A DNA stretch of 29,875 nt from a virus. The stretch covers positions 1 through 29,875 of IMG/VR virus record IMGVR_UViG_3300009104_000085; one strand, 5' to 3'. The notes beneath the pieces are model-generated. The model searched no databases. It saw only the letters and a list, made by a program, of their open reading frames with translations, and was not told where the DNA came from. The stretch's first letter is position 1; each line of letters starts with the position of its first letter. The position numbers and the translations under genes are program-made. Shown piece after piece: positions 7,226-25,598 of the stretch.

Positions 7226-7235
7226 GAGAATATAA

Positions 7236-8022: not shown

Positions 8023-8023
8023 A

Positions 8024-11000
8024 ATGGCAGATAGTAGAGTACTAATTGAAATTATAACAACGAGTAAAGGGTTAAAAATAGCCGCCGTTGATGCTGCAAA
8101 ATTAGCTAAAGAAACTGAGAAAATAGATAAGTCTCAAGATAAGGCTACAAAAAGCGGTAATAAATATCATAAATTACAGAAAGGAGTAGCTCAAGCAGGA
8201 GCGAATTCTACTAAAAACTTCTCAAAAATGAATCAAACAATGGGATCGGGAGGATCCTCTGGTTTGGTGGCAGCTTATGCAACATTAGCTGCTAACGTCT
8301 TTGCTGCGACCGCAGCATTTAGTGCTCTTTCTCGAGCAGCAGAATTTGAAAATCTTCAAACAGGTTTAACAGAATTAGGAGCTACCTCTGGGCAGACTCT
8401 ATCTGTTGTGGCTGATGGTTTGAGAGAAATTACAGGTATGGCCTTATCTAGTGAAGAAGCCATGAGAGGAGCCGCTTTAGGTATTTCTGGTGGGTTTGGT
8501 GGAGCTGAATTAGAAGGACTAGCAAAAATAGCTAAAGGAGCTTCAATAACATTAGGTAGAAACTTACCAGATGCATTTGATAGATTAACAAGAGGTGCTA
8601 TAAAGCTAGAGCCAGAAATATTAGATGAATTAGGTATTATGGTTCGTGTAGATGATGCTATGCGGGATTATGCTGTACAATTAGGTAAAGCTTCAACTGC
8701 TCTTACTCAGATGGAAAAAAGACAAGCATTTATGAATGCAATTCTTGAACAAGGAGAAATGAAATTTGGACATATTGCTGATAGTGTTGAAACTGATGTA
8801 TATGCTAAATTAGGAGCAACTTTTGCAGATTTAACTAAGCATATATTTACTTTTGTTAATGAATCTTTACGCTTAGGAGCTGTAGTTGGATTTTTAGCTG
8901 AAAATATGACAGTTCTTGCTGGAGTTATGATACTATTTGGTAGCACTATAGCAAGTAAGATGTTACCTTTTCTTGCTAATGCTGGAGAAGGAGCAGCCAG
9001 AACAGCTAAAAATTTAAGAGGTTTAGCTGATGCAGCAGCAGGTTCATTAAAAAGTACAAAAGATGCTATTGCTGCAAGTATTGTGGACGCTGATGTAGGA
9101 TCAAAGGCTTTCAAAAAAACTATGGCAGATTATGTAGCAGGTAATGCGGGGGTTAAGGAGTTAACAATAGCAAAATCAAAATTAGCGGCAGGAGAAAGGC
9201 AACTTCATAAAAGAAGAGTATTTAATTCTGCAAAAGAAAAGGCGGATCATGAAGCAAGAATTATAGCCTATCAACAAGAGCAAATAGAACTTGGAAAATT
9301 AATAGCTTTAGAAAGTGAACATGGAGCTGCTGCAGTAAAAGCAGATGCAGCTAGTATAATAGCAGATCAAGCACAAGCAAATTCTCGTGCTATTGCAGTA
9401 TATACACAGGGTGGAGCAAGCCTTGGGCAGACATTAGGTGATTTAAAAGATGGATATGGAGATTTAAGGGATAAATTAGTAGAAAATGCTAAAGGTATGG
9501 AACATGGAAATAAAGTAACCAAGAAGCTACGAATTGGGAATGCAAAATTAAAAGCTGGTATGACTCAATTAGGAGCACAAGCTAAAGCTATAGGAGCAGC
9601 CTTTATGAGTTGGCTCCCATTAATAGGAGCTATAGTTATTATAGCAGGAGTACTATATGCAATTTGGAATAAACTTTATAACACAAAAGAACATAAGGCA
9701 TATGTAAAACAACAAGAAAAATTAAATGAAGTACTTGAAAATCAGGCAAAAATAGCAGACTCATATCGTAAAACAAATGAAACAATCCGTCGTTCAGCGG
9801 AGAGACAAGTACAAAATTTTGAACAAATAAGTAATAGTATTAAGCAAGTAAATAAAGAATTAAAAGAAACTATAAGACTCAGAGAATTATCAAGCAAAGA
9901 CTATAGCATGGGAATGAGTGAAGAAAATGCAGCAGAAAGAGCTGAGAACTTTGGCAAAACTTATACCGCTAGTTCTGGGTATGCTAGTAGGGCAGTACTG
10001 GTAGATATGACAGAAGCAGAGGTAGGGGCGAAGATGGACTCCTTGATAGGTAAAAATGCAATAGACTTAACTAAAGAACAGTTAACTCAAATTTTTCAAG
10101 TAAAAGATAGTGATGAGTGGAAAACATTTCAAAATGCATTAAAGAGTGAAATTCCAATGATTGCAGAATCCGCCGCTAGAAAGTTTAATAATATAATGAG
10201 TGAAGGAATCAAAAATCCCAAAGAATTAGTAATAGCATTAGCTGGGGGCATGCAAGATATGGAAGATGGTATGGGAGGCTTGGGAGCTGCTGTACGAGGT
10301 ATGCATACAGGATTAGTAGAAGCAGAAAAAGAAGCTTCTAAATTTATGCAATCTTTTGCCAAAACAACAAAAGTTGATAGATTATCAGATGCTTTTGATA
10401 CTATAGTACTTAGTCTTGACACTATTGATAAAGAAGCAAAATTAGCTAATTTAATCCCAGAAAAGGGAGCAAAAGCATTATTAGAGACTGGAAAAGCTTT
10501 ATCCTCGATGGGGGATACTACAGCTCGTATGGTTAGCAAAGACTTTGTTAATCAATTAGATAAGGTAAAGATGCTAGAAGATGAGATATGGAAAATTAAT
10601 ACTTCCGATAAGACTAAAAAGAAGAAGGAGGAGGAAATAGCTAAGCTAGAAAAAATACATGGCACTTTAGATAAAAACTTAGAGATATTGGGGGGTTATG
10701 ACGATGCTGTTAGAAACGCTGCCAAAAATGCTTCTGTTTTACAAAGAACTTTATTAGTTACTGCACAAGAACTTAAAAATATATCTGCAACTCAAAAAAC
10801 TATAAATGGTCTTCAAAAATCTGGTATTAATATGCAAAAACATACAAATACATTAACAAAGAAAAAATTTGAATTAGAGAAGAGAGTACAAACAGCACAA
10901 AGGGGTTTCTTAGTAGATAATATTGAAGCAACAAAAGCAGCACGAGATATAGATCTTGGGTTTATGAAGCTTAAAAAGGGGCAACAAGTAGATATAGCAA

Positions 11001-12751
11001 CTTTTGAAAAATTATCTGTTGAAGACCAAATAAAACTTGCATCAGAATTAGGACTAAAGAAAGCTGATGTATATTCTTTAGAGCAGTTAAACTTTCAAAT
11101 TAAAATGAAAAACTTGCAGGCAGAGCATGCTGAAACAATTGGAGTACATCAGGCAACTATACAAGTCTTTGAAACTTTAAAGAAGAAACATGAATTAGAA
11201 AAGAAAGCTTACGAGACACAACAGGAAATGTTCAAACTTCAAAGAAAAATAGCAAATTTTGAAGGAGGTAGAGGTTTTGCAGAAACAGGTGTAGAAGAAG
11301 CAAAAGCTAAAATTGATGCTGCAAAATATGAATTAGACGTAGCAATACTTAGGCAAGAAGCAGAAAAGAAGATGATAGCCGCAAAAGCCAGAATCCAAGA
11401 AGCTGAATTAGTATTACTACAAGGCCAATTGGCATTAGCGAATATGCCTCCAATGAGTGAGGACGACGTAAAGCTTATTCAAGGCGCTATTAAAGACGCG
11501 GAAACATTAAGTACAACTGCTGTAGACGATAATATAAAATTATTAAAACTTAAATATACAGGAGCTTTATTAGAATCTTTCGAAACTGCAATACAACAAT
11601 CAGTTGAAGGAGATAATCTTAATGCATATGCATTAGCTCTCGCAGCTGCTAGAGATCCTGGAGGTGTAGGAGGAGTTACGGAAGAAGCAAAGAAAAGAGA
11701 AACAGACGCGGGACGAACAGGCGATGATGCTCAATTTACAGGAGAAGACGGAGTAATTACTTTTGCTGAAAAAATTAGTTTAATGAAAGTGATGACAGGT
11801 AAATTTACTGAAGAAATGTCAAAACTTGGCCCTACAGGGGAAGCATATGCAAACTTTATGGCAGGCGCTTATGGAATGGCTGATGGTTTAACTGCAATAA
11901 AAGAAAATGGACTCAAATCTGCTGAAGGTATAAAGGGAGTGACTCAGATGATAGGCGGTATTGGTCAAATGATGCAAGCCGCTTCAGCAGCTAAAGTAGC
12001 CGCAATAGATAATGAAATAAAAGCAGAAGAAAAAAGAGATGGAAAGTCTAAAGAGTCTCTTGCAAAAATCCAGCAGTTAAAGATGAAAAAGTATCAAATT
12101 GAGAAAAAAGCTTTTGAACAAAATAAGAAAATACAATTAGCTGGTGCAATTATAGATGGACTTGCTGCTATACAGAGTGGTTTTTCTACTAAACCTTTCT
12201 GGCCTATGGGGCTATTAATGGGAGGTATGGCAACCGCAATGACTATGATGCAAATAAAAGCAATTAAGTCTCAAACTTTTTCAGGAGAAAAACCTGATAT
12301 GTCAAAACCCACAGCACCAAATACAGCTTTAAATATAGGAAAGAGAGGCTCAAGTGTAGATGTTTCTAGAGGAGCAACAGGTGGAGAATTAGGCTACTTA
12401 AGAGGTCAAAGAGGATATGGTACATCAGCATCAAATTGGAAACCTACAGGAGGAGCAGCTGGATTAAGAAGTGGATATGGAGCTGGAGGAGTTCTCGTAG
12501 GAGAAAGAGGCCCAGAAGTAATAGCTCCAAGAGGGGGGTATGAAGTAACTCCAAATGACCAGTTAGGTGGTGGAGCTGGTAATGTAAACTTTACAATAAA
12601 CGCAGTAGATGCTGCAGGTGTAGAAGACGTACTACTTAGACAAAGAGGACATATAATAGGAATGATAAGAGAAGCAGCGAATGACAATGGGGAAAGATTT
12701 TTAGAACAAGTAGATACTCAAGTTTATGCAAGTGAAGCAGGTGGTGGATAA
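8024..12751 (+). CDS. Tail tape measure protein
   Basis: A 1575-residue protein, the length ruler and scaffold of the tail, which also helps DNA entry. It has long charged helical stretches (residues about 560-640, 850-920, 1010-1120) and hydrophobic segments at about 78-105, 287-320, 526-550 (SWLPLIGAIVIIAGVLYAIW, the clearest membrane span) and 1373-1415. The C-terminus carries the tape measure signature: a Gly/Arg-rich stretch, then GGVLVGERGPEVIAP, then a conserved-looking helix ending near the stop. No lytic transglycosylase or peptidase motif was recognised, so the wall-cutting enzyme, if any, is elsewhere. At about 0.15 nm per residue the predicted tail is at most about 236 nm. It starts one base after the previous stop with no clear ribosome site, and ends overlapping the next ATG. 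Confidence 0.93.
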   Translation: MADSRVLIEIITTSKGLKIAAVDAAKLAKETEKIDKSQDKATKSGNKYHKLQKGVAQAGANSTKNFSKMNQTMGSGGSSGLVAAYATLAANVFAATAAFSALSRAAEFENLQTGLTELGATSGQTLSVVADGLREITGMALSSEEAMRGAALGISGGFGGAELEGLAKIAKGASITLGRNLPDAFDRLTRGAIKLEPEILDELGIMVRVDDAMRDYAVQLGKASTALTQMEKRQAFMNAILEQGEMKFGHIADSVETDVYAKLGATFADLTKHIFTFVNESLRLGAVVGFLAENMTVLAGVMILFGSTIASKMLPFLANAGEGAARTAKNLRGLADAAAGSLKSTKDAIAASIVDADVGSKAFKKTMADYVAGNAGVKELTIAKSKLAAGERQLHKRRVFNSAKEKADHEARIIAYQQEQIELGKLIALESEHGAAAVKADAASIIADQAQANSRAIAVYTQGGASLGQTLGDLKDGYGDLRDKLVENAKGMEHGNKVTKKLRIGNAKLKAGMTQLGAQAKAIGAAFMSWLPLIGAIVIIAGVLYAIWNKLYNTKEHKAYVKQQEKLNEVLENQAKIADSYRKTNETIRRSAERQVQNFEQISNSIKQVNKELKETIRLRELSSKDYSMGMSEENAAERAENFGKTYTASSGYASRAVLVDMTEAEVGAKMDSLIGKNAIDLTKEQLTQIFQVKDSDEWKTFQNALKSEIPMIAESAARKFNNIMSEGIKNPKELVIALAGGMQDMEDGMGGLGAAVRGMHTGLVEAEKEASKFMQSFAKTTKVDRLSDAFDTIVLSLDTIDKEAKLANLIPEKGAKALLETGKALSSMGDTTARMVSKDFVNQLDKVKMLEDEIWKINTSDKTKKKKEEEIAKLEKIHGTLDKNLEILGGYDDAVRNAAKNASVLQRTLLVTAQELKNISATQKTINGLQKSGINMQKHTNTLTKKKFELEKRVQTAQRGFLVDNIEATKAARDIDLGFMKLKKGQQVDIATFEKLSVEDQIKLASELGLKKADVYSLEQLNFQIKMKNLQAEHAETIGVHQATIQVFETLKKKHELEKKAYETQQEMFKLQRKIANFEGGRGFAETGVEEAKAKIDAAKYELDVAILRQEAEKKMIAAKARIQEAELVLLQGQLALANMPPMSEDDVKLIQGAIKDAETLSTTAVDDNIKLLKLKYTGALLESFETAIQQSVEGDNLNAYALALAAARDPGGVGGVTEEAKKRETDAGRTGDDAQFTGEDGVITFAEKISLMKVMTGKFTEEMSKLGPTGEAYANFMAGAYGMADGLTAIKENGLKSAEGIKGVTQMIGGIGQMMQAASAAKVAAIDNEIKAEEKRDGKSKESLAKIQQLKMKKYQIEKKAFEQNKKIQLAGAIIDGLAAIQSGFSTKPFWPMGLLMGGMATAMTMMQIKAIKSQTFSGEKPDMSKPTAPNTALNIGKRGSSVDVSRGATGGELGYLRGQRGYGTSASNWKPTGGAAGLRSGYGAGGVLVGERGPEVIAPRGGYEVTPNDQLGGGAGNVNFTINAVDAAGVEDVLLRQRGHIIGMIREAANDNGERFLEQVDTQVYASEAGGG

Positions 12752-13467
12752 TGGCAAATTTTAGTTCTTTTTCAAACAGACTTCCCGATCCTAATTGGGG
12801 GTTAAATGAGGCTGGAGATGGTCATGCAAGTAATTATACAGAAGGACCTGGATTTGCTTCGGTTAAAGTAAGCTCTATGCAACCTGTAGCCACTAGTGTA
12901 ACAAATAGTGGAAGGGTATCATCGAGAACGATTCATGCTCATAGATGGAAAATCTCAATACAATATAATCCTTTAACTAGAAATCAATTTGAACCAATTT
13001 ATAATTTTCTTTTAGAAAAAAGAGGTAAATTAAAACCTTTTGAAATAGTATTACCTCAATATAATAGTCCTAGAACTACTACTAGTGGAACTATAAGCGT
13101 TGATGGGGCAATAACAGCAGGAGCAACAAACTTTAAAGTTGATGGCTTCGGAAGCGTTACTGGAGGATTAAGACCAGGTGATATGTTTAACTTTACGGAC
13201 AGTAATAACTCAAACCATAAGAAAACATATAGAATTGTAAGAGTTTTAACTAATTCAGATTATTTAACAGGAGGAACACAACCCGCATCAGATGAACGAG
13301 TTTATTATACTATTCCTTCTGTAGAGAAAGGAGTAGCAGATAATTCTACTCTAACTTATACCAACCCTACTTTTAGGGTTATGCAAGAAGGCGATATTCG
13401 AGAATACTCTTTAGGCACAAACAATCTATATACATTTTCATTAAATTTAATAGAGGCTCAACCTTAA
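12751..13467 (+). CDS. Distal tail / minor tail protein (gpM-like)
   Basis: A 238-residue protein directly after the tape measure, with a 1-nt overlap, in the position of the lambda gpM or distal tail protein that connects the tube to the tip. Residues about 60-105 (HRWKISIQYNPLTRNQFEPI, then a helix and FEIVLPQYNSPR) fit the strand-helix-strand layout of that family. Residues about 110-155 form a glycine-rich, strand-rich segment (ITAGATNFKVDGFG, LRPGDMFNF) that may be an inserted beta module. The C-terminus (LYTFSLNLIEAQP) returns to the family pattern. Family identity is inferred from layout and position. Confidence 0.62.
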   Translation: MANFSSFSNRLPDPNWGLNEAGDGHASNYTEGPGFASVKVSSMQPVATSVTNSGRVSSRTIHAHRWKISIQYNPLTRNQFEPIYNFLLEKRGKLKPFEIVLPQYNSPRTTTSGTISVDGAITAGATNFKVDGFGSVTGGLRPGDMFNFTDSNNSNHKKTYRIVRVLTNSDYLTGGTQPASDERVYYTIPSVEKGVADNSTLTYTNPTFRVMQEGDIREYSLGTNNLYTFSLNLIEAQP

Positions 13468-13468
13468 A

Positions 13469-16400
13469 ATGTCAACTGAGAGATCAATAAATGCGAATAT
13501 TAAAACTCATCTACTTTCGAATGAGCCGCTACAGTATGCCCATCTTGTAAAATTCGAACGTCCGTTCGATCCCGATCCACTTACAGGAAAATTCCGAACA
13601 AATAAAGAACGATATGCGTACTTTACAGATGCTGCGCACGATATTTCGTACAATGACGGAACTACAGACCAAGATGGAAATTCTAATGGGGCAATGACCT
13701 ATAGAGCTAATAGAGTACTTAAGATAGGTAATTATTCTGAAACAACAATAGCAAGAGCAACAAGTTTAAAACTTACTTTAGCAGGAGAAGATTTAGGGGC
13801 TGCAGTAAGTTTAAATGGAGCTTTATCAACAGCAACAGTAGATAGTGTAACTGTAGGACGATTTACTCCAACTTCTACAATTTATGAGGGGGAAGTATTA
13901 GATTTTACAGAGAAAGGATTTAAAGAAGGAGACTTAATAACCTTTACTAATACAACAACTAGTGCAGTTGATAGTAACGCTTATACTAATAAATATATTA
14001 TAACTCTATCTTCAGCTAATTCTCAGATTAAGGAAGGAGCTATAGTTACAGGTACAGGTATCGGTACAAATACAAAAGTAGTAAGTATTGATAGTGCAAC
14101 CTTAACTTTGGATAAATTAGTATCAGTTAGTTCTGGAGCAACCTTAACTTTTGAAAATTCAAATACATATTTTCTTAATAGATTTAGAACTAATAATACT
14201 GTTCTTGAATTTTCACGAACAGGAGATGATAGTGATGATAGTGCTTTTTTAAGTCTTACTGATGATTTTACTATTTCTCTTAAATCTCAAGAAGTAACCT
14301 CAATTTTAGAAGATAGGCAGATTGAAGCAGGAGCCATTTCTCGAGATACAAGTTTAGCTAGTCCTAGTTTTTTGCATAGACAAGTTTTTGTTTATAAAGT
14401 GTTTATTGATCCTGATGATGGAAGTATAATTGGTAATACATCAATTTTAGTTTTTAAAGGGATTGTAGCTTCATCTAGTTTATCAGAAGATGGCACTAAT
14501 ACGATAGTTGATTGGTCAGTAACTAGTCATTGGGGAGATTTTGAAGGAATACAAGGAAGATTAACAACTGATGAAACTCATAGATCTTTAGATGCAAGAG
14601 GTAAACCAAATATTGAACAAGGAATTAGACCAGAATATGCAGGAGATCTTGGATTTTTACATTCTGAAACTTCATTAAGCGCTATAGCCATATATAATAC
14701 TAAAGGTCAAGGCTCTAAACTGAAATCCAAAAGAAGGGGTGGTTTTGCAGGACTTACAGGTCAGAAGTATTATGTAACTGAAACTTGGGAATATGATATT
14801 CAAAATGAAGTAGATTTAAATATTCATTTACAAGGAAAACATCTTCCTGTAGTTTATGGAGTTCAAAGACTAAATTCTGTTCCAATTTTTGCAGATACTT
14901 TAAATAGTGATTCTAAAAAAGTTTATACAGCTGATGCTATTTGTGAAGGAGAAATTCATGGTGTATATAATATATACATAGATGATGTTCCTTTAATTTG
15001 TACTGATGATAATGATTATGATATACGAAATGCTACTAATGGAACTGATACAGACAATACTCAGTTACAATGTTATGGAAATATGTCAAAAGGAGATACT
15101 TTAAATGGTCATTTAATGAGAACAGCTCCTTACTCAACAGCAGATGAACAAAGAGTAATGGCAGGGTTATCTCCATCTTCAGCTACTATGGCGGGAACCC
15201 ATGTACCTCTTATTGGTACTCCTTTTTCTACTGGGCATCAAGACGCTGTAGAAGATTCAGCTCATTCTCCTTTAAAATATAGAAGCGTAGCTCCTCAAAA
15301 TATTCAAGGATTAACTGCATCAACAGAAGGATTAAATCATGACGAATCTTATAAAATTAATCTAGGAGATGGCGGAGTTTTATCTAGTACAATGTTTACT
15401 GGACAAGCAAATCAAAAAGCTTGTGACTCTTTAGTAACTCCAGCAGAAAATGTTACAAAAGTTATGTCTGTAACTATAACAAATCCTGGAGATGGTTATA
15501 CTAGCGCTCCTACTGGAGTAATAGATGCTCCTGATAGTGGCGGAACTCAAGCAACTATAGGAAGTATAACTTTAGGAACTGCAGAAAATGGAGAAACTGA
15601 TGTATTAGGAAATATAACAGTAAATAATCATGGAACTGGGTATGCACCTGTAGATACGCCTGTAGGAGTTACATTTAGTGGCGGCGGTGGTTCAGGGGGT
15701 GCAGCGGTTGCAAATTTAGGGGGTTATAAAAGACAAAATGACTATTATGATGGAAATTTACCTTATTGGGGTCCCGCTCATAGATTATTAGATACAGCTT
15801 ATGTAGCTACTTCGTTTGAACTTAATGCTGATCAAACTTCATTACCTGAGATAGAATATATTGTAAAGGGGAAGGTTTTAGAATGTCATAATTATGATAA
15901 TACTTATTTACCAGACCCTTCAGTAACAAGTGCTGCTCATACGAATTTTGTAGAGGGTTCAATATATACAGTTGAATATAGTTCTGATGGTTCAAGTTGG
16001 ACAACAGATACTACAGGTACTTGGACAAATAATAAGTTTAAAATTTTAGATAAATATGAATTTACAAACCATAGGGGAGTTACAACTTGGCGTTTTAGAT
16101 TAGATACTACTCCTGCTTTAGGGGGTGCAACTCCAACTCAAACTAGATTAAGATTAAAAAATGGAAATGATTATTGGTATATGATTACTTGGAATCATGC
16201 TGTAGTATCTACAGAGACAGCTTTCCCAGATGAATGGACTACAGCAACTTTAGGTGTAGCTAGTGGTAAACTAACAGCAACAGTAGCAGATGCAACAGCT
16301 GGAACCCCTGCTTTAAATACTTATACTGAGTTTCAATTTTATAACGCAGATTGGTATGATGATTATAGTCATGATTATGACCATACAAAAGGTTTAAAGT

Positions 16401-19400
16401 ACGGTGTTTTAAAAGGAACTTGGAGTGGAAATACAATAACTTTTGATGGAACTGATTATACAGGAATAAGTTCTTTTGGAACTAATAAAATTAGACCAGC
16501 AGATGCATTTGATTTATCTAGTGTAAGTGCCGTAGCTAATATAACTAATACTGGAGAATTATATAGTGGTCGTACTACAACTCAATACCATTATCTTACA
16601 CACGCAGCAACTAGTCAAACAGAGCACGAAATAGGAGCTAGATTAATAAATGAAACAACAGGAGAATGGAGAGAAATTATTGGATTTAATACTACTACTG
16701 ATGTAGTAACTATAGAAACTCCTTTCTTTACGCCACCTTTAACTACTCATAAATTTACAATATCAGGAAGAGGAAAAGATTTAAGAGCTTCTTCTAATCC
16801 AGCCATACAAACTTTAGATTACTTAACAAGTAAACGCTATGGTAAAGGAGCAGATTTAGCTGAAGATGTAGATTTATCTAGTTTTATATCTGCTGCAAAA
16901 TTATGTGATTCTAGATCAAACATACAATTAAAAGTAGAAAGTATTACAGGGATAGCAGAAGGAGATATATTTACTTTAACCCATAATGGAGCAAGTGATG
17001 GAACTCATGTTGCCTCAGGAAAAGTAGCTGCTGGGGGTATTGATGCAAGTGGTAATACTATTACTCTTACTCAAGTTATAAATAAGTTTGCAAAAAGATA
17101 TTCGACTTATACATCACTTAATACAGGAGATATAGTATATACTGATGCTGGAGCCTACTACAGAGCTACTGCAGATATAGCAACCCCTCCTTCAACTGTA
17201 CCTTCACATGGGAGTCAAACAACAGTTGCTAACTTATTACATATCGGAAATTATGATGATAATGTAGGAGCCAATCCTATTGTAGTACATAAAACTTCAG
17301 GAAGTGGTAGTGCTTCTACTTTAAATGTGCAAAAAAGACAAGGAACCCCAGTAGAGTATTCTTTATATGATTCAGATTGGGTAAAATATTGGAAATATTA
17401 TGGGTGGGATCATCATCATCAAAGAGAAGTAACTAGACACCAAACTAACTTTATATTAGATACTGGTAAATCTGTTTTTGCAAATATGAATGCATTACTT
17501 TCTCACTTTAATGGAATTCTTTCCTATGAAAATGGAAAATACACATTAGATGTTGAAACTCAAATGGACGCACCAACTATAAGTTTAAATGCTAATCAAG
17601 AGAATATTAATCCGTATTATATAGAAAATTCAGATATAATAGGTAGAATATCCTTAAAAGATAATTCTAGTAAGAAAGCCAAAAATACAGTTAAAGCTAG
17701 TATAGCTGATCCACAGAATAATTTTGGGTCTAGAAGCATTACTTTCTTTAACTCTGACTTTTTAAAAGCAGATAGAAATATAGTAAAGAACGGACAATTT
17801 CCTTTTACAGGAATAACAAATTATTATAATGGTAGAATTGGAGCCGAAAAAGAATTATATCAAAGTAGGTTCTCAAAAGAAATAAGTTTCACTGTCGGTT
17901 CAAGAGGCTTATTATTAAAGGCTGGACAAGTTATTGCTATAACATATGATCCGTTTGGGTGGAGCTCTAAATTGTTTAGAATCGATAACCTTTCATTTCA
18001 AGCAAATTGTAATGTTTCGGTAAAAGCTACAGAGTATGATGATAGCATTTATGAAATCACTAAACAACAATTTAGTAATGTTATGAGTCAAAGTTCTGCT
18101 TCTTATACTCTACCTATTCCACCAAAGCCTACAGACTTAGATGCTACTACAGATAAAAATGGTTCTATAATTATAACTTGGAAGAATGGTGTAAGTGATA
18201 ATAATGCTTTTGATGAAAGAACTGATTCTACAGAAATATGGTATAATAGTTCAGATGATAGAGATTCTTCAACTTTATTAGCAACTGTAGATAATTCAAC
18301 TTCATATACATTTACTTCTACTGTTGCGGAGAATAAATACTTTTGGATTAGACATAAAAGAATGTCAACTATGTCGAAAGGGAGTAAAACAGGTACTATA
18401 CATTCTGCTTGGAACGCTTCAGCGGGAGAATTAGGGACTTCTTTATCAATAAGTGCTGGGGCAACAAGTGTTAAATTACTACCAAGTAGCCATGTAATTG
18501 ATTGGAATAAAGAAGCATCAGATGAACAATCTACTATTAATTTTACTACTGATATACAAGGTATGTCAGGAACTCTTTATTATGACTTCTTAGTTGGAGC
18601 AACATCAAAACAAAATACTACAACTTCTACTTGGACTTTACCTGACGCAGATGAACCCGGCCCAACAGATGCTCCAATAAAAATTACAGTTAAAGTTAGG
18701 CAAGGATCAACTTCAGGAACTCTTTTAGCACAAGATGTAGTTTCAATTTACGCAATACAAGACGGACAGAATACTGTTACCGGGATATTGACAAATGAAT
18801 CACATACTGTACCCACAAATTCTGATGGATCAGGAGCGAGCTTTACTGGAGCGGGAGGAACTTATTTAGTATATTATGGAAATGATAAAATTCAAGATAT
18901 ATCGGGTTATCAAGCGTCAGATTTAGTATTTAGTGTACAAGGCACAACAGGAACAGTAACAGCAGCTATAAATGCAACTACTGGAGTATATTCAATATCA
19001 GCACTTAGTTCCGATGTAGCTACAGTAACTTTCAGAGCGATAGTTAAGGGCAGTATGTTAGGCGGCCTTGATACCACAAATGATGTAACAAGAGATAAAA
19101 TTTATACAATATCAAGAGCAAAAGCAGGAGTTTCTGTAACTGGAACTTCAAATGCATTAGTATATGCATATCAAAGATCTTCTAGTGCACTTACTTCTGA
19201 TGCAGGAGATGTAACAGTTGCTTTAACAGGAACTGACGCAGGTAAAATAACAACAAGCAGTTTAGCTAATGATTGGGAAAAAGAGATACCAAGTGGAACA
19301 GACGATTTATATGTTATAGCTGCAACTGCAAGTGGAACAGGAGCAACAGATACTATAGCTGCTTCAGAGTGGACAGACCCTGTCCAATTAGGAGCATCAG

Positions 19401-20914
19401 GGTTAGCTGGATTAAATTCTGCAACAGTACAATTATGGCAAGCAACAGCAACAGATTCCGAACCTTCAGCAGGAAGTAATAACGGAAAGCCTGAAGGAAA
19501 CGCAACTTATACATTTGCTACTTCAACTTTAGGAGCATTTGCTACAAATGCTCGTAGTTGGTCAACTGTTCAGCCTTCTGTAAGTTCTACTAATAAATAT
19601 ATATGGACAATTACAGCAACTGCATCAAGTAATACTGCTACTGATGTTATACCAGATAGTGAATGGAGTGATATAATAAAACTCGTTCAACCTGGAGCAT
19701 CTGGAACTGACTCAAAAACAGTTCATTTAGCTGCAGATGATTACTCAATAATTTATGATGGAAATGGAGCAAACCCAGAGCCTAGTGGTAATATAACACT
19801 AACTGCAACTGCAATTAACTTCACTGATCCTTATTTTAAATTTACAACAGACGGTACTGCAGAAGGTAATTATTCAGACGGTTCTGGAGCTACAGATACG
19901 AAGACCTTCGCTATCCCTAGTACTAAAGCAGCTTTTGGAACTGATAGTAAGGTTATGAGGGTGGGAGTGGCAGACGCAGATCAAAACGAGCTTGCTTACG
20001 ATACAATTAATATTTACGCAGTACAAGATGGAACTGATGCTTTAACAGTTATATTAGCAAATGATGCAGTAGCTTTACCTGCAGATGACACTGGGGCTAT
20101 TAGCTCTTATAATGATAGCGGTACAACTATAGAGGTACTTCAGGGAGGATCAACTCTTGATTACATTGCGTCAGGAACAGCTGCAGCAGGAGAGTATAAA
20201 GTAACTGCTGTAGAGTCTCAAACAAGCAGTACAGATGATCTTACAGTAGATCAAACTCCAACAGATACTTCTGATGGAGTAACTTTTGGTAATGTTAGTG
20301 GTTGGCGTGCAACAGATCAAGTAACAGCAAGTATTACTTTCACAGTAGCAGGAAAAGATTTAGCGGGGAATAACTTTTCGGTAGTTAAGAAACAAACCTT
20401 TACTCAAATTAAAGCAGGAGCATCAGGAACCCTTACTACAAAAGTAATTTATAAAGCAGCTAATATAGCTCCAAGTGCTCCGAGCGCAGATGGATTAAAT
20501 GTTCCTAGTGGTTGGAGTGAGGACCCAAATATAGCAAGAACTCTTCCACAAAGACTTTATCAAAGTACAGGAACTATAAGTAGTGGTGCATATGTTTGGG
20601 GGACTCCAAAAAATGCAAATGAGGGAGAGCACATGATATTTAGACAGTCTGCCATGCCTGATGGTAGTAGTACTTATGAAGTAAACAAAGATGATCACTG
20701 GTATGATCTCGACTTTAGTCCTCCCCTAAAATATGTTGCTATGGCAGATGATGCGGCAGCAATACATTCAACTACTGGGTGGTGGCGTGCAGAACCTGAT
20801 CTAAGAAATGTTGTTACTTTAGGTAATAATACTTTACCAGCTACAACAGACTACAATGTAGGAACAATAGTAATATTAGCCAACGGTAGAACTCATGAGT
20901 TGGTGGATTTATAG
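13469..20914 (+). CDS. Giant tail tip protein: gpL-like tip, gpJ-like hub, FN3 and Ig-like repeats
   Basis: A 2481-residue protein that probably forms the tail hub and host-recognition tip. Residues about 1-385 resemble the gpL or DUF2163 tip region (a long beta block with FKGIVASSSL) interrupted by inserted beta modules. A glycine-flanked segment near 458 (LPVVYGVQRLNSVPIFAD) is typical of the gpJ hub, which resumes at about 1110-1545 (SKRYGKGADLAEDVDLSS; ILDTGKSVFANMNALLSHFN) after a roughly 450-residue insert containing a G-x-GY module (665-750). An FN3-like domain (KPTDLDATTDKNGSIIITWK) spans about 1549-1635. Beyond that, repeated Ig-like modules with YAIQDG and YAVQDG motifs alternate with blocks ending in SEW, joined by short GASG linkers. 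No separate peptidase gene lies nearby. It starts 1 nt after the previous stop. The hub call is good; domain limits are approximate. Confidence 0.8.
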   Translation: MSTERSINANIKTHLLSNEPLQYAHLVKFERPFDPDPLTGKFRTNKERYAYFTDAAHDISYNDGTTDQDGNSNGAMTYRANRVLKIGNYSETTIARATSLKLTLAGEDLGAAVSLNGALSTATVDSVTVGRFTPTSTIYEGEVLDFTEKGFKEGDLITFTNTTTSAVDSNAYTNKYIITLSSANSQIKEGAIVTGTGIGTNTKVVSIDSATLTLDKLVSVSSGATLTFENSNTYFLNRFRTNNTVLEFSRTGDDSDDSAFLSLTDDFTISLKSQEVTSILEDRQIEAGAISRDTSLASPSFLHRQVFVYKVFIDPDDGSIIGNTSILVFKGIVASSSLSEDGTNTIVDWSVTSHWGDFEGIQGRLTTDETHRSLDARGKPNIEQGIRPEYAGDLGFLHSETSLSAIAIYNTKGQGSKLKSKRRGGFAGLTGQKYYVTETWEYDIQNEVDLNIHLQGKHLPVVYGVQRLNSVPIFADTLNSDSKKVYTADAICEGEIHGVYNIYIDDVPLICTDDNDYDIRNATNGTDTDNTQLQCYGNMSKGDTLNGHLMRTAPYSTADEQRVMAGLSPSSATMAGTHVPLIGTPFSTGHQDAVEDSAHSPLKYRSVAPQNIQGLTASTEGLNHDESYKINLGDGGVLSSTMFTGQANQKACDSLVTPAENVTKVMSVTITNPGDGYTSAPTGVIDAPDSGGTQATIGSITLGTAENGETDVLGNITVNNHGTGYAPVDTPVGVTFSGGGGSGGAAVANLGGYKRQNDYYDGNLPYWGPAHRLLDTAYVATSFELNADQTSLPEIEYIVKGKVLECHNYDNTYLPDPSVTSAAHTNFVEGSIYTVEYSSDGSSWTTDTTGTWTNNKFKILDKYEFTNHRGVTTWRFRLDTTPALGGATPTQTRLRLKNGNDYWYMITWNHAVVSTETAFPDEWTTATLGVASGKLTATVADATAGTPALNTYTEFQFYNADWYDDYSHDYDHTKGLKYGVLKGTWSGNTITFDGTDYTGISSFGTNKIRPADAFDLSSVSAVANITNTGELYSGRTTTQYHYLTHAATSQTEHEIGARLINETTGEWREIIGFNTTTDVVTIETPFFTPPLTTHKFTISGRGKDLRASSNPAIQTLDYLTSKRYGKGADLAEDVDLSSFISAAKLCDSRSNIQLKVESITGIAEGDIFTLTHNGASDGTHVASGKVAAGGIDASGNTITLTQVINKFAKRYSTYTSLNTGDIVYTDAGAYYRATADIATPPSTVPSHGSQTTVANLLHIGNYDDNVGANPIVVHKTSGSGSASTLNVQKRQGTPVEYSLYDSDWVKYWKYYGWDHHHQREVTRHQTNFILDTGKSVFANMNALLSHFNGILSYENGKYTLDVETQMDAPTISLNANQENINPYYIENSDIIGRISLKDNSSKKAKNTVKASIADPQNNFGSRSITFFNSDFLKADRNIVKNGQFPFTGITNYYNGRIGAEKELYQSRFSKEISFTVGSRGLLLKAGQVIAITYDPFGWSSKLFRIDNLSFQANCNVSVKATEYDDSIYEITKQQFSNVMSQSSASYTLPIPPKPTDLDATTDKNGSIIITWKNGVSDNNAFDERTDSTEIWYNSSDDRDSSTLLATVDNSTSYTFTSTVAENKYFWIRHKRMSTMSKGSKTGTIHSAWNASAGELGTSLSISAGATSVKLLPSSHVIDWNKEASDEQSTINFTTDIQGMSGTLYYDFLVGATSKQNTTTSTWTLPDADEPGPTDAPIKITVKVRQGSTSGTLLAQDVVSIYAIQDGQNTVTGILTNESHTVPTNSDGSGASFTGAGGTYLVYYGNDKIQDISGYQASDLVFSVQGTTGTVTAAINATTGVYSISALSSDVATVTFRAIVKGSMLGGLDTTNDVTRDKIYTISRAKAGVSVTGTSNALVYAYQRSSSALTSDAGDVTVALTGTDAGKITTSSLANDWEKEIPSGTDDLYVIAATASGTGATDTIAASEWTDPVQLGASGLAGLNSATVQLWQATATDSEPSAGSNNGKPEGNATYTFATSTLGAFATNARSWSTVQPSVSSTNKYIWTITATASSNTATDVIPDSEWSDIIKLVQPGASGTDSKTVHLAADDYSIIYDGNGANPEPSGNITLTATAINFTDPYFKFTTDGTAEGNYSDGSGATDTKTFAIPSTKAAFGTDSKVMRVGVADADQNELAYDTINIYAVQDGTDALTVILANDAVALPADDTGAISSYNDSGTTIEVLQGGSTLDYIASGTAAAGEYKVTAVESQTSSTDDLTVDQTPTDTSDGVTFGNVSGWRATDQVTASITFTVAGKDLAGNNFSVVKKQTFTQIKAGASGTLTTKVIYKAANIAPSAPSADGLNVPSGWSEDPNIARTLPQRLYQSTGTISSGAYVWGTPKNANEGEHMIFRQSAMPDGSSTYEVNKDDHWYDLDFSPPLKYVAMADDAAAIHSTTGWWRAEPDLRNVVTLGNNTLPATTDYNVGTIVILANGRTHELVDL
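15463..15720 (+). repeat. Glycine-rich G-x-GY module inserted in the tail tip
   Basis: The encoded segment starts VMSVTITNPGDGYTSAP and contains ITVNNHGTGYAPVDTPVGV, giving two copies of an N-x-G-x-GY pattern followed by a glycine-rich tail. The same style of module (STKGTGYAVGDIV) is inserted in the tail tube gene at about 4730-5020. These look like interchangeable surface modules in one virion. The boundaries are approximate and the shared origin is inferred. Confidence 0.45.
18750..20420 (+). repeat. Repeated Ig-like and Trp-rich modules in the tail tip C-terminus
   Basis: Two copies of an Ig-like block start YAIQDGQNTVTGILTNESH (residue about 1761) and YAVQDGTDALTVILANDAV (about 2182). 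Between them, two blocks end in ASEWTDPVQLGASG and DSEWSDIIKLVQPGASG, and a third, diverged one follows the second Ig-like copy. Short GASG-type linkers join the blocks. The repetition is clear in protein but not at DNA level, so the duplications are old. Such modules usually extend the receptor-binding tip. Confidence 0.55.
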
Positions 20915-20923
20915 GAGAAAAAT

Positions 20924-22123
20924 ATGACAATACAATGGAAAGAAATAGCTTCAATAGGAGCAGTAGCAGGAGTGAATTTAAAAGAATCTGACGGCACAGT
21001 ATTAGCTGATAGTGCAGTTAAAAACTCGTCCATAGCTTTAGCTATAAATAATTCTACAGGAGCATTAACCTTAACAAATGCAGGGAGTGGAGTAACTTTA
21101 TCAAATGCTAGTGTAGGATTAAGTAATGTAGCTAATGTAGATATGAGAGATTTGGGAAATGCAACTGCAGGAACTTTAGCTGCAGCTCGTGGTGGAACAG
21201 GCTTAACTTCTATTTCTACTTTAACAAATAGTAATACTACTAAATCAGATGTAGGCTTAAGTAATGTAGATAATGATTCAACAGCTACTATTAGATCAGG
21301 TACTACTAAATCAGATGTAGGCTTAAGTAATGTAGATAATGACTCAACTGCTACTATAAGAGCAGGTACTACTAAATCAGATGTAGGCTTAGGTAATGTA
21401 GATAATAATTCAACAGCTACTATATTAGGTAGTACTCATACTGGGGCTGTAAGTGGAAATGTCACAGGAACAGTTAATAGTGTAGCGGTAGCAACCGTTA
21501 CTTCAGGAGCTGCAGCAGGAGCTACAGCTAATCAAGATTCAACAACTACTATTAGAGAAGGCACTACTAAAACTCATGTAGGTTTAAGTAATGTACCAAA
21601 TACAGATGCAACAAACGCAGGTAATATATCCTCAGGAACTTTAGGAAAAGCTAGAGGTGGTTTTGGAGAAGATGTTTCAAGTAAAACAGGGGCCTTATCG
21701 GTAAGTGGTGGTACTTTTAGTTTTGGAACTCTACCTGCAGGTGTAGGTGGAACAGGTTTAACCAGTACTAGTACTTTATTAAATACGAATGTAACAACTT
21801 TTAGTATAGATAGAAGTAATATGCATGTATGGTCAAATCTTAATAATAATTTAACTCCTAGTTCTACTACAAATGATTGGACTATAACATGGTATAATGG
21901 AGCGGGAACGTCTTTAGGTACAACAGTAATCAGAGCTTCAACAGCTAATTCTTCAACAAGTTTGGCAATAATGCAAACAGTTAGTAATGGAGCAAGTGCA
22001 ACAATAAATTTAGGAGGTGCAACATCTGCAGGAAGCATACAGACTACTACAGTAACAAAAAATAGTGTAGTATGTACTTTAAAAGCTGAGATAGTTGATG
22101 GATCTGGGTGGGATTTTAAGTAG
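20924..22123 (+). CDS. Tail fibre protein with 22-residue repeats
   Basis: A 399-residue protein behind a TAGGAGAAA ribosome site overlapping the tip gene stop. The N-terminus (TIQWKEIASIGAVAG) is short. Residues about 105-170 and 214-235 contain a 22-residue repeat with consensus TTKSDVGLSNVDNDSTATI, a repeat common in phage fibre shafts, with ARGGTGLTS motifs at about 88-96 and 275-283. The C-terminus (about 295-399) is not repetitive and may be a tip or binding domain. It lies just before the two GNAT-like genes and may be their structural partner. Fibre function is well supported by the repeats; the ligand is unknown. Confidence 0.8.
   Translation: MTIQWKEIASIGAVAGVNLKESDGTVLADSAVKNSSIALAINNSTGALTLTNAGSGVTLSNASVGLSNVANVDMRDLGNATAGTLAAARGGTGLTSISTLTNSNTTKSDVGLSNVDNDSTATIRSGTTKSDVGLSNVDNDSTATIRAGTTKSDVGLGNVDNNSTATILGSTHTGAVSGNVTGTVNSVAVATVTSGAAAGATANQDSTTTIREGTTKTHVGLSNVPNTDATNAGNISSGTLGKARGGFGEDVSSKTGALSVSGGTFSFGTLPAGVGGTGLTSTSTLLNTNVTTFSIDRSNMHVWSNLNNNLTPSSTTNDWTITWYNGAGTSLGTTVIRASTANSSTSLAIMQTVSNGASATINLGGATSAGSIQTTTVTKNSVVCTLKAEIVDGSGWDFK
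21236..21433 (+). repeat. Tandem 66-bp coding repeat in fibre gene
   Basis: Three adjacent units of 66 bp (22 codons) start at 21236, 21302 and 21368. Units 1 and 2 differ at only about 4 positions; unit 3 is more diverged at its end. A fourth, diverged copy starts near 21563. The close DNA match indicates recent duplication and a site where fibre length can vary by recombination. Confidence 0.85.
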
Positions 22124-22167: not shown

Positions 22168-22752
22168 ATGGCATTTAAAATAACAGGAGAAAATATATAC
22201 CTAAGAAAAGCACAGGAGTCAGATATGAGTACATTGGCTACTGCGGTTGACTTTAGTCCTGGTTCAGTGAATCCTGATTCTAATTCTCAAAAGTATTATT
22301 GGTATAGAGAAAATAAAGCTAATGCAGCAGCAGTTAGTGCAGCTTTAACAAGTTCTTCGGGAACTGGCTCTATGTTTCTTACAGTTTGTAAAAAAAGTGA
22401 TGATAGTATAGTAGGTTTTCATAGATTTGTATATATAGATCAAAAAGTTGAATCGAAATTTACAGCTATAATACCTTCAGCAAGGGATAATGGTTATTAT
22501 AAAGAAGTGGGCGTTTTACGACATAAATTTTATTTTCAAGGGTTAGAAGCAACTTCAGCAGAAATGAAGTTACCAACAGATATTAGTCATTATTTAGATA
22601 CTTTATATACTGGAACTGATAGGACCGGGTATATAACTAATCAAGGAAATTGGAGATGGAGTACAATAACTTCTTCAAACTGGACAGCTTGGATTGATGC
22701 GGGGGCTCAATCTACTTATAAATCACAAACTTATTCACTAACATGGAGTTAA
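22168..22752 (+). CDS. GNAT-fold protein in the fibre region (first)
   Basis: A 194-residue protein. The start (ENIYLRKAQESDMSTLATAV) is like the opening strand and helix of GNAT acetyltransferases. Residues about 68-90 (MFLTVCKKSDDSIVGFHRFV) match strands 2-3. FTAIIPSARDNGYYKEV (about 96-112) sits where GNAT motif A binds acetyl-CoA. In that motif (R-x-x-G-x-G/A) the last small residue is replaced by Tyr here, which could weaken cofactor binding. The C-terminus holds a WTAWID motif at about 172-177, also found in the next protein. The start is ATG 22168 after AAGGA. It is probably expressed with the fibre gene. It may acetylate a tail or host component or be a structural GNAT relative; the substrate is unknown. 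Confidence 0.6.
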   Translation: MAFKITGENIYLRKAQESDMSTLATAVDFSPGSVNPDSNSQKYYWYRENKANAAAVSAALTSSSGTGSMFLTVCKKSDDSIVGFHRFVYIDQKVESKFTAIIPSARDNGYYKEVGVLRHKFYFQGLEATSAEMKLPTDISHYLDTLYTGTDRTGYITNQGNWRWSTITSSNWTAWIDAGAQSTYKSQTYSLTWS

Positions 22753-22753
22753 T

Positions 22754-23437
22754 ATGATAGTTACTTATAGATATTCAAATGACAATATTTACATTCAGCC
22801 TCTTTTAGATAGGGCAGAAGATAAAGCAAATATATTATTAGCTAGAGCTGATTGGAGAGCTGATGGTGTAATACCCACAAAAGAATTTGATGATGTTTTC
22901 CCTATTTGGATTTCAGAATTAAATCAAACTTGGAAAGATGTAGGAATGACAGAAAATACAAAAGCAGAGGCTCAAAGAGTGGGTATGCCTACAGAAGATA
23001 ATAGTGTAAACCCCCGATCATTTTATCCAAAGCCTTTTTATTTAATAGAAATGGTTTATGAAAAATCAACAAATGATTTTGTAGGTTTTACTAAGACTTG
23101 GCTGAACGGCACTCATTCTGAGCACATAGTTACTTGTTATCACCCAGATCAAAGAGGAAAAGGATATCATGACGATATGGCGATAATAAACACAAAAGCT
23201 TGGTTTTTATATAGTGGAGGTGAGTCTGCATCATATTACACCCCTAAAGGTCAGAGCAGTTATTACGTATCAGATCCTAATGCTGCAATTGCAAAAACAA
23301 GGGTTGATAGAGTTGAGCCAGTTGATTATATAGAAAATAAACTTACTAAAGCAGATTGGACTACATGGATGAATCAAGCAGATAAACAAGCAGATAGAGA
23401 TGCTAATTTTTTAATGCAACGATACTTAGAAATATAA
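22754..23437 (+). CDS. GNAT-fold protein in the fibre region (second)
   Basis: A 227-residue protein beginning 1 nt after the previous stop. FYLIEMVYEKSTNDFVGFTK (about 96-115) matches GNAT strands 2-3, and IVTCYHPDQRGKGYHDDMAI (about 124-143) matches the motif A loop and helix, with the canonical HPDQRGKGY sequence. The final small residue of R-x-x-G-x-G/A is His here. Residues 201-206 (DWTTWM) match the WTAWID motif of the neighbour, followed by a charged helix. The N-terminal 90 residues differ from the first protein. A GNAT-fold identity is likely; whether it is catalytic is unknown. It is the last gene before the sigma-70 promoter, so it closes the upstream transcription unit. Confidence 0.65.
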   Translation: MIVTYRYSNDNIYIQPLLDRAEDKANILLARADWRADGVIPTKEFDDVFPIWISELNQTWKDVGMTENTKAEAQRVGMPTEDNSVNPRSFYPKPFYLIEMVYEKSTNDFVGFTKTWLNGTHSEHIVTCYHPDQRGKGYHDDMAIINTKAWFLYSGGESASYYTPKGQSSYYVSDPNAAIAKTRVDRVEPVDYIENKLTKADWTTWMNQADKQADRDANFLMQRYLEI

Positions 23438-23479: not shown

Positions 23480-23508
23480 TTGACATATACCTTAAATTTT
23501 GGTATAAT
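23480..23508 (+). promoter_or_regulatory. Consensus sigma-70 promoter before the fibre cassette
   Basis: TTGACA at 23480-23485 and TATAAT at 23503-23508 are separated by exactly 17 nt, a complete match to the bacterial consensus. A-rich sequence (GAAAAATAAT) precedes the -35 box, as an UP element might. The predicted start is around 23515, just before the ribosome site of the gene at 23533. It is the clearest promoter in the window. Confidence 0.85.
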
Positions 23509-23517: not shown

Positions 23518-23535
23518 GGAGGAAAAAAATAAATG
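23518..23535 (+). promoter_or_regulatory. Strong ribosome site for the fibre cassette's first gene
   Basis: GGAGG at 23518-23522, in the 5' leader just after the predicted transcription start, lies 10 nt before ATG 23533, a strong but rather widely spaced match. It differs in style from the aggagaaa sites used upstream. Confidence 0.6.
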
Positions 23536-23868
23536 AGCGCAGGAACTTACAATTTCATATTAGAGCAAGGAGCGACGTTTAACCGTATTCTAACCCTGAA
23601 AGAAAACAATGCAGTAATGGATCTAACAGGCTACTCGGTTGCGTCTAAGATGCGATCAACCCACGACTCGAGTACGGTGGTGGGCACTTTTACGTGCACG
23701 ATTAGTGACGCTAGTGCTGGTAAGATAACAATGCAGATGACCAATAGCACTACGGCAGCAATTGAAGAAGGAATGTATGTATACGATTTAGAGATTACGG
23801 CTAGTAGCGGAACTGTTACTCGTATAATGGAGGGCACAGTTACCGTTAACCCAGAGGTAACTCGATAA
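23533..23868 (+). CDS. Tail/baseplate-type structural protein, first gene of fibre cassette
   Basis: A 111-residue beta-rich protein: YNFILEQGATFNRILTLKEN, DLTGYSVASKMRS, then YVYDLEITASSGTVTRIMEG and a final EVTR. This layout is a common small phage structural family found beside tail fibres and resembling the N-terminal part of upper-baseplate proteins; it may anchor adhesins. The gene is visibly richer in G and C than its neighbours and uses codons such as CGT, ACG and CTG more often, suggesting separate origin. It directly follows the sigma-70 promoter, and its stop overlaps the next ATG by one base. Function is inferred from family style and location. Confidence 0.6.
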   Translation: MSAGTYNFILEQGATFNRILTLKENNAVMDLTGYSVASKMRSTHDSSTVVGTFTCTISDASAGKITMQMTNSTTAAIEEGMYVYDLEITASSGTVTRIMEGTVTVNPEVTR

Positions 23869-24269
23869 TGGCAATAACAGTAACTATAACTGAAAATCCA
23901 ATTTATGTAACCGTTGATGAAACTAACAATACAGTTACTTTAAATCAAAGTGATAATCCTATTACTATTAATACAACAAGTGATTTAACACTTCAAGCAG
24001 GCTCTGCAGGAGACATAGTTTACACACAAACAGGTAGTTTACCTGGTGGTAATATGCAAGAAGCCTTAGCTGATTTAGCAGACCAATTTTACAGACAAGG
24101 TTCCACTCCTTCGGGTAGTAATTTAGCAGAAGGAGATTTATGGTATAATACCTCAACAGAAGAATTATTTGTCTACAGACAAGTATCTGGTGGATACGAA
24201 TGGCATACTATTGCCTCAGCAGGGGGATCATCTCCCACGACTTTCACCTTAGATGGTGGGTCATTTTAG
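23868..24269 (+). CDS. Small fibre-associated protein
   Basis: A 133-residue protein. The first 45 residues are strand-rich with repeated T/N/V (VTITENPIYVTVDETNNTV), followed by GDIVYTQTGSLPGGNMQEAL and AEGDLWYNTSTEELFVYR, a segment typical of the ends of phage fibre proteins that give a short trimer-like fold. The one-base overlap with the preceding gene points to coupled translation. I cannot assign a specific role; it may be an adhesin subunit or a connector between fibres. Confidence 0.5.
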   Translation: MAITVTITENPIYVTVDETNNTVTLNQSDNPITINTTSDLTLQAGSAGDIVYTQTGSLPGGNMQEALADLADQFYRQGSTPSGSNLAEGDLWYNTSTEELFVYRQVSGGYEWHTIASAGGSSPTTFTLDGGSF

Positions 24270-24278
24270 GAAAAATAA

Positions 24279-25598
24279 ATGGCAACAAATATAATTAAAA
24301 TTAAAAGGACAACTGGTACTACCGCACCCAGTTCGTTAAACGCAGGAGAATTAGCATTCTCAGGTGGCTCTGGAACTCAGGGCAACATGGGGCAGAGGCT
24401 ATTTATTGGTGATCCTGCAAACTCAAACGCTGTTACAGTAATTGGCGGTAATTACTTTAGCAACTTAATGGATCATGCACATGGTACTACTACTGCAAGT
24501 TCGGGATTAATTGTAGACGCAAATAAATCGACTTCAGAGTTAAGAACCGCAGCATTATATTTAGGAACATCAGGTTCCGATACATTAATAACAGCTACAG
24601 CTGCAGAACTAAATACATTAGATGGAATTACTTCCACAGCAGCAGAACTTAACCTATTAGATGGTTCCGTTGCAGGAACAGTAGTTGCAAGTAAAGCAGT
24701 AGTTGTAGATTCAAATAAAGATGCGGCAAGTTTTAGGAATGTTACTTTAGCAGGAACTCTTACAGCAGCTACATTAGATATATCAGGCAATATAGATGTT
24801 GACGGTACTACTAACTTAGATAATACAGATATTGATGGGTCATTAACAGTTGATGGAGCAGTAGACTTTAATCCTACTACTTTTCAAGTAGATGCAAGTG
24901 ATGATGTAGATATAAATACTACAGATACTACTGGTGGTATAGGAATAGGTACATCAACTTCAGGAGTTCCAATTTCAATAGGACACACAACTTCAGAAGT
25001 TACAGTTAATGATAATATGACAGTTACAGGAAATTTAACGGTTGCTGGCACTACCACTACTGTTAATTCTACTACTGTTTCAATAGCAGATCCTGTATTC
25101 GAAATAGGTTCTTCTTCAAGTGATGATAACCTTGACAGAGGAATAAAAATGAAGTATAACTCTAGTGGAGCTAAGATTGCTTTCATGGGTTATGATGATT
25201 CAGATGGAAAATTCGCATTTATACATGATGCAACAGATTCTTCAAGTGTCTTTTCTGGCACACAAGCAACTTTGAAAGCAAATATAGAAGTTGTTTCAGG
25301 TGGTAGTGGTTTTAAAGTTGGGGACTCTTATCCTTTTAGTGATAGTTCTGGAACTTTAACACTTACAAATATTGATAATATAGATGCCACAACAGAAGCA
25401 ACTTTTGAAAATGCTATTGACAGTTTATCAAACTTAACAACTGTTGGAGCTATTACTTCAGGTACTTGGGAAGCAACAGCTATAGCAGTAAATAAAGGTG
25501 GAACAGGATTAACAGCGGCAGGTACTTCAGGATTTATACCAGTATCTAATGGTAGTGCTTGGGTTATGCAAGCAATAGATGGAGGCACATATAGCTAA
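24279..25598 (+). CDS. Tail fibre with Mtd-like N-terminus and AAELN-LDG repeats
   Basis: A 439-residue protein. The N-terminus (IIKIKRTTGTTAPSSLNAGE) resembles the start of phage major tropism determinant-like adhesins. Residues about 107-130 contain TATAAELNTLDGITSTAAEL, two copies of an AAELN-x-LDG repeat known from fibre shafts. Residues about 160-200 carry ATLDISGNIDVDGTTNLDN-type repeats. The middle (about 250-330) with DNLDRGIKMKYNSSGAKIAF is shared with the giant fibre downstream. A GGTGLTAAGTSGF motif lies close to the C-terminus. This is probably one of several fibres or side arms. Start ATG 24279; stop overlaps the next ATG. Confidence 0.75.
   Translation: MATNIIKIKRTTGTTAPSSLNAGELAFSGGSGTQGNMGQRLFIGDPANSNAVTVIGGNYFSNLMDHAHGTTTASSGLIVDANKSTSELRTAALYLGTSGSDTLITATAAELNTLDGITSTAAELNLLDGSVAGTVVASKAVVVDSNKDAASFRNVTLAGTLTAATLDISGNIDVDGTTNLDNTDIDGSLTVDGAVDFNPTTFQVDASDDVDINTTDTTGGIGIGTSTSGVPISIGHTTSEVTVNDNMTVTGNLTVAGTTTTVNSTTVSIADPVFEIGSSSSDDNLDRGIKMKYNSSGAKIAFMGYDDSDGKFAFIHDATDSSSVFSGTQATLKANIEVVSGGSGFKVGDSYPFSDSSGTLTLTNIDNIDATTEATFENAIDSLSNLTTVGAITSGTWEATAIAVNKGGTGLTAAGTSGFIPVSNGSAWVMQAIDGGTYS

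Follow-up and report, generated by a model that had tools for sequence, protein, structure and literature searches.

Two adjacent phage genes, hereafter GNAT1 and GNAT2, encode divergent members of the GNAT superfamily, as seen through comparison of their whole family. Within the range of moderately close relatives, the comparisons of gene order and sequence indicate that the pair is obligately linked to one C-terminal domain (CTD) of the tail-tip or fibre protein encoded upstream, in marine tailed phages. It is probable that the pair serves this CTD by one mechanism or another. The reading we prefer, with an estimated probability of a little over 0.4, is that the two proteins acylate the CTD, as a fibre-dedicated maturation pair in which GNAT2 is probably catalytic and GNAT1 degenerate.

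Two genes at the end of a tail-tip unit

The window, i.e. the whole stretch of 29,875 nucleotides that was analysed, is a virus record that reads as a fragment of a siphovirus-like phage; no tRNA genes were found in it. Upstream of the GNAT pair it encodes a head protein, a major tail protein, a tape measure, a distal tail protein and J, and the pair itself sits between a separate fibre gene (20924-22123) and a second fibre module (23533-25598). The relevant features are the following:

13469-20914, + strand: central fibre / tail-tip protein J, 2481 aa (phrog_31 central tail fiber J, E 4.3e-35)
20924-22123, + strand: separate fibre protein, 399 aa (phrog_25620 tail collar fibre, E 0.0015)
21776-22120, + strand: CTD, ~110 aa, ending in GWDFK (from the alignment, its invariant columns and the linkage test made with the CTD alone)
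22168-22752, + strand: GNAT1, 194 aa, with a C-terminal WxxWI segment (family comparison)
22483-22506, + strand: motif A loop of GNAT1, RDNGYYKE (R106, Y111 and E113 invariant, 21/21)
22754-23437, + strand: GNAT2, 227 aa, paralogue of GNAT1, with an invariant N-terminal DWR-DGV set (family comparison)
23141-23170, + strand: motif A loop of GNAT2, HPDQRGKGYH (R134 and G137 invariant, 17/17)
23480-23508, + strand: promoter, perfect match to TTGACA-N17-TATAAT with an extended -10 (pattern found in the window and in relatives)
23533-23868, + strand: LtfC-like / phrog_1084 fibre-assembly-like protein of the next module (phrog_1084, E 2.9e-32)

The initial annotation of this DNA had pointed to two adjacent open reading frames at the position of the pair, and these are indeed found there, on the + strand and one base apart. 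They are not chance frames, because both have intact homologues and low dN/dS values. In protein scans of IMG/VR, which used short conserved peptides and whose reach is limited to moderately close relatives, GNAT1 was found in 26 records and GNAT2 in 25, window included, with the same gene order; these contigs are not all independent, several being near-duplicates, and represent about a dozen lineages by sequence, with 22 distinct sequences for GNAT1 and 18 for GNAT2. Wherever dS was finite, dN/dS was 0.02-0.44 for both GNATs (0.02-0.49 overall). We conclude that GNAT1 and GNAT2 are real genes under purifying selection.

A sigma-70-type promoter that the initial annotation overlooked, at 23480-23508 between GNAT2 and the gene starting at 23533, sets the pair apart from the downstream fibre genes. 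It is a perfect match, for which the chance expectation in the window is 0.08. In 173 kb of representative loci, six perfect matches were detected on the + strand, all of them just after GNAT2. The promoter also follows GNAT2 in relatives L001, L008, L013 and L021-L025 (relatives are designated by locus number), and in near-perfect form in L017 and L040. This means that GNAT1 and GNAT2 close the tip unit, and do not open the next fibre unit. The gene at 23533-23868, which also matches phrog_3304 (L-shaped tail fibre assembly, E 3.6e-17) and, just under the cut-off, PF23926 LtfC (1.1e-5), is downstream context, outside the GNAT pair.

Linkage and exchange with one tail-tip domain

Across the loci, the gene 5′ of GNAT1 encodes either a tip/J protein or a separate fibre, and in both cases the C-terminal ~110 aa make up a single conserved domain, the CTD. 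This domain ends in G-F/W-x-F-K, except that the final residues are different in L013 and in the distant L040 (which ends in LGGK, the conserved lysine being displaced). The lysine of F-K, at the extreme C-terminus, is the only conserved one in the domain. The J protein of the window does not have the CTD, which is carried by the next gene: over its last ~200 aa, this separate fibre shares 66-70% identity with the C-terminus of the L006 J protein, a resemblance that its first ~200 aa do not have. J and GNAT1 are joined by overlapping stop and start codons in several loci.

Starting from GNAT2, one finds GNAT1 and a tip or fibre gene upstream of it in the loci. For the reverse test, IMG/VR was scanned with the CTD alone, yielding 22 contigs, two of which end no more than 2 bases from the match, so that 20 have downstream sequence. 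GNAT1 comes next after the CTD in 20/20 of them, with a RimK-like gene intervening in two (L068 and L069), and GNAT2 follows GNAT1 in all CTD contigs that extend far enough. Five of these 20 contigs were new, having been missed by the GNAT scans. The initial annotation had tied the function of the pair to the fibres, and when we asked whether homologues occur mainly away from tail genes, every one of them was found directly behind a tail-tip or fibre gene. The tie to a fibre is supported, and it can be narrowed down: the link is to the CTD of the upstream fibre, not to fibres in general.

These results bear on the possibility that the pair has a general role in metabolism or host takeover, like Rac, which acts on RNA polymerase, or like a spermidine acetyltransferase, and is found near a fibre by chance. 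Phage GNATs with such roles have been described or proposed (PMC7824862, PMC6918029), and a spermidine acetyltransferase is among the nearest structures to the family. However, all homologues share one location, in different tail types. At the sensitivity used, searches of phage isolates (tblastn, 50,697 records) and of 84,980 prokaryote species genomes turned up nothing convincingly related to the pair or to the CTD, and no stand-alone homologue was found in these two sets. We consider this explanation very improbable. A GNAT toxin was also set aside, given the fixed location behind fibres and the lack of an antitoxin-like neighbour.

Comparisons between loci revealed how the domain and the pair move. 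The J proteins of L009 and L013 are 80-93% identical over their first ~1,400 aa, whereas most of the distal part and the CTDs are only ~25% identical, and the GNAT1s 41%. Between L009 and L001, whose CTD belongs to a separate fibre, identity is 63% for the CTD and 84% for GNAT1. In the case of L030 and L034, the J backbones are only 14-22% identical, yet identity reaches 71% for the CTD, 79% for GNAT1 and 67% for GNAT2. These identities indicate that the CTD and GNAT1 (together with GNAT2) travel as a cassette between different J backbones and tail types, and such joint movement is what a pair working on the CTD, or together with it, would be expected to show. Considered for itself, the comparison of L009 (465-7280) with L013 (1522-7992) is a clear example of receptor-binding module exchange between J-like tail-tip proteins, which are ~85-90% identical over 1,400 residues and differ almost entirely beyond them.

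Joint exchange with a receptor-binding domain is also what would be seen if the pair modified the host receptor of the CTD (a sugar or a protein precursor), thereby preventing re-adsorption of the progeny, with a specificity matched to the CTD and hence a joint cassette. Phages are thought to alter host surfaces, an example being the glycosyltransferases encoded beside tail fibres in pelagimyophages (PMC7029224). Such a role is difficult to reconcile with the location of the pair: its genes come last in the tail-tip unit, and the promoter of the next unit follows them in several lineages, which implies late expression. Moreover, the pair is accompanied by no transport or membrane part, and no other surface-modifying gene was seen next to it. 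We therefore hold receptor modification to be unlikely.

The GNATs were also considered as fast-changing adhesins, and this was rejected. Identities for CTD/GNAT1/GNAT2 are 68/86/93% between L017 and L034, and 60/77/81% between L021 and L024; in most pairs compared, with L021-L026 as an exception, the GNATs are conserved as much as the CTD or more, and this speaks against a role as the variable part in contact with the receptor.

Apart from this, L006 was found to encode CsgF, CsgG, curlin-repeat proteins, FecR and a CHASE2-adenylate cyclase at 9679-15281, between tail and lysis-type genes. Similar genes are present in L007, L026, L030-L033 and L035, in siphovirus-like phages with lambda-J-type tails. 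The published examples of such curli modules come from pelagiphages whose tails are of the podo- or myovirus type (PMC9599517, PMC7029224).

GNAT membership and the acyl-CoA loops

Taken alone, GNAT1 and GNAT2 of the window gave no GNAT match in Pfam, PHROGs or NCBIfam, and their assignment was made through the family. HMMs of GNAT1 and GNAT2, each built without the other, find each other with E values of 1e-9 to 1e-22 for nearly all members, the weakest cross-match being that of the L001 GNAT2 (E 2e-4). Since independent HMMs recover each other, the two are paralogues. A combined profile built without L040 found the distant adjacent pair of that locus (E 6e-15 and 3e-14, in a search of 20,000), and this pair scores above the curated Pfam cut-offs, with 27.6 versus 25.4 bits for Acetyltransf_3 and 21.9 versus 20.7 for Acetyltransf_1. 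Among Pfam models, Acetyltransf_3 has matches to the largest number of members (12/27, at E up to 1); GNAT1 of L030 matches it over positions 2-128 of 138 (E 0.0022). Against the PDB, the 27-member profile retrieved the GNAT 3fbu (E 3.8e-4, profile positions 8-145, most of the domain), five further acetyltransferases with weak scores, and chance matches to geminin and a kinase. In hhalign comparisons, single-sequence E. coli GNATs matched the family too weakly to be decisive; the combined profile placed five GNATs above all 20 control proteins.

The GNAT identity first proposed for the pair is thus borne out by the L040 Pfam scores, the profile match to L040 and the match to 3fbu. It rests on sequence, because AlphaFold was run on two-sequence alignments only and returned pLDDT values of 30 and 36 for the two proteins, too low for a usable model. 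Residues 141-193 of the L013 GNAT1 (7992-8618) match DUF6866_C with an E value of 1.7e-4, below the cut-off. This match may be a sign of a wider group of proteins of this kind; as a lead it went no further.

The motif A loops read as initially described, R106-D-N-G-Y-Y111 in GNAT1 and R134-G-K-G-Y-H139 in GNAT2, with Tyr or His in place of the usual last Gly/Ala. In the family, the small last residue of R/Q-x-x-G-x-G/A is present in 0/21 GNAT1 and 1/17 GNAT2 proteins. From this replacement it had been argued that catalysis may be altered or lost. The argument is weak, because RimJ and RimL of E. coli, which are active N-acetyltransferases, are equally bulky at this position (loops QGKGLM and QGQGII). 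The alignment offers a better sign of altered chemistry: in GNAT1 the Arg, the last-position Tyr and the following x-Glu are each kept in 21/21 members, but the first Gly is present in 9/21 (the window included) and lost in 12/21. In GNAT2, by comparison, Arg and the first Gly (R-x-x-G) are conserved in 17/17, the last position being F, H, Y, M, W or A, and the invariant DWR-DGV set lies where other GNATs contact their acceptor. Judging from these residues, the pattern better fits a GNAT2 capable of binding acyl-CoA, with a GNAT1 that is degenerate in some lineages.

Possible action on the CTD and relation to known systems

If the pair acylates the CTD, the following scheme can be proposed. 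GNAT1 and GNAT2 would be made late, alongside the tail-tip protein, and their action on the C-terminal receptor-binding domain would precede tail assembly or accompany it. GNAT2, with its acetyl-CoA loop Arg and Gly retained throughout, would be the catalytic N-acyltransferase, and GNAT1, degenerate in many lineages, would be its substrate-holding partner, comparable to tandem GNATs in which one half is dead. The lysine of the C-terminal F-K, the only one conserved in the CTD, is a candidate for the acceptor, although this residue may be structural. We infer in this way the direct action on the CTD, the catalysis, the division of labour and the lysine target.

Linkage and co-exchange fit a chaperone or a tip cap equally well. 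The proteins would then be GNAT folds that have become non-catalytic and bind to the CTD, either in the form of a heterodimeric chaperone or as a component of the virion, in the manner of Tfa, gp38 or LtfC. A location directly behind the fibre and a strict one-to-one linkage are in keeping with such an assembly factor, as is the degeneracy of the loops, above all in GNAT1: the missing loop Gly in 12/21 GNAT1 proteins and the bulky last loop residue in nearly all members weigh against acylation. Furthermore, the next fibre of the window owns an LtfC-like assembly protein, and for the upstream fibre no known Tfa-type chaperone was recognised. What argues for an enzyme is that GNAT2 keeps its cofactor loop, with R-x-x-G retained in every member, as well as DWR-DGV, and that one lineage adds a RimK-like ligase to the cassette; the pair also has no sequence relation to known fibre chaperones. 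On these grounds acylation is preferred, and an assembly factor or cap is regarded as a serious, if somewhat less probable, possibility.

RimK-like ATP-grasp proteins are a protein-modifying family. The gene in question (E 7.5e-32) is found inside the cassette in the L021-L025 lineage only, and is absent from the window; in L021 it occupies 6489-7388, between the fibre CTD and GNAT1. Its closest relative in an isolate, with 45.5% identity, is encoded by pelagiphage Mosig, away from the fibres. A RimK-like gene was for this reason rejected as a general part of the fibre module, and since isolates carry such genes away from fibre genes, the support that it brings to the enzyme reading is modest.

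Phage GNATs have been described as host-takeover or DNA-modifying enzymes (PMC7824862), and as general regulators of host metabolism (PMC6918029, PMC10504331). No description of a fibre-linked GNAT pair was found in the literature searched, whose coverage was partial. The companions of fibres so far known in phages act as chaperones or caps and have other folds; the present pair is a fibre companion cassette whose companions have an unexpected fold. It could represent the first case of a post-translational modification system dedicated to a phage receptor-binding protein, in which a split GNAT pair, joined in one lineage by a RimK-like ligase, would complete the tail-tip domain chemically and move with it, as a cassette, between unrelated tail types, a proposal that we hold slightly more tentatively than acylation itself. 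If phages do modify their adhesins chemically, host range and adhesin evolution would have to be read differently from sequence. In the alternative case, an adhesin chaperone would have been derived from a common enzyme fold. Owing to the one-to-one linkage, a direct test of this question would need no more than the ~110-aa domain and two small genes. For annotation, "acetyltransferases" behind such fibres should not be taken as metabolic by default.

Among known systems, the GNAT superfamily, as represented by Acetyltransf_3/Acetyltransf_1 (RimJ/RimL/SpeG-like), shares with the pair the order of elements, the motif A Arg (plus Gly in GNAT2) and, in L040 and L030, a sequence similarity that extends along most of the domain. 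The pair differs in that most members fall under the Pfam cut-offs, the last loop residue is bulky, GNAT1 is often devoid of the loop Gly, a C-terminal TxxxWxxW segment is added, and the proteins always come as adjacent pairs. MshD, Eis and N-myristoyltransferase are tandem or split GNATs with one degenerate half. They resemble the pair in having two related GNAT units, one of which is better preserved in the acyl-CoA motif, whereas here the units are separate genes without a sequence match to these proteins, and the partner role is putative. Lambda Tfa, T4 gp38 and T5 LtfC are likewise products of small genes directly behind a fibre and exchanged with the tip domain, but they are not GNATs, and the pair has no PHROG or Pfam match to them. 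Phage RimK-like ATP-grasp ligases have one representative inside the L021-L025 cassette, unlike in the window. Finally, Rac-type GNATs, which act on the host RNA polymerase (PMC7824862), are also phage-encoded, but differ in location and partner, the pair described here being fixed to a fibre domain.
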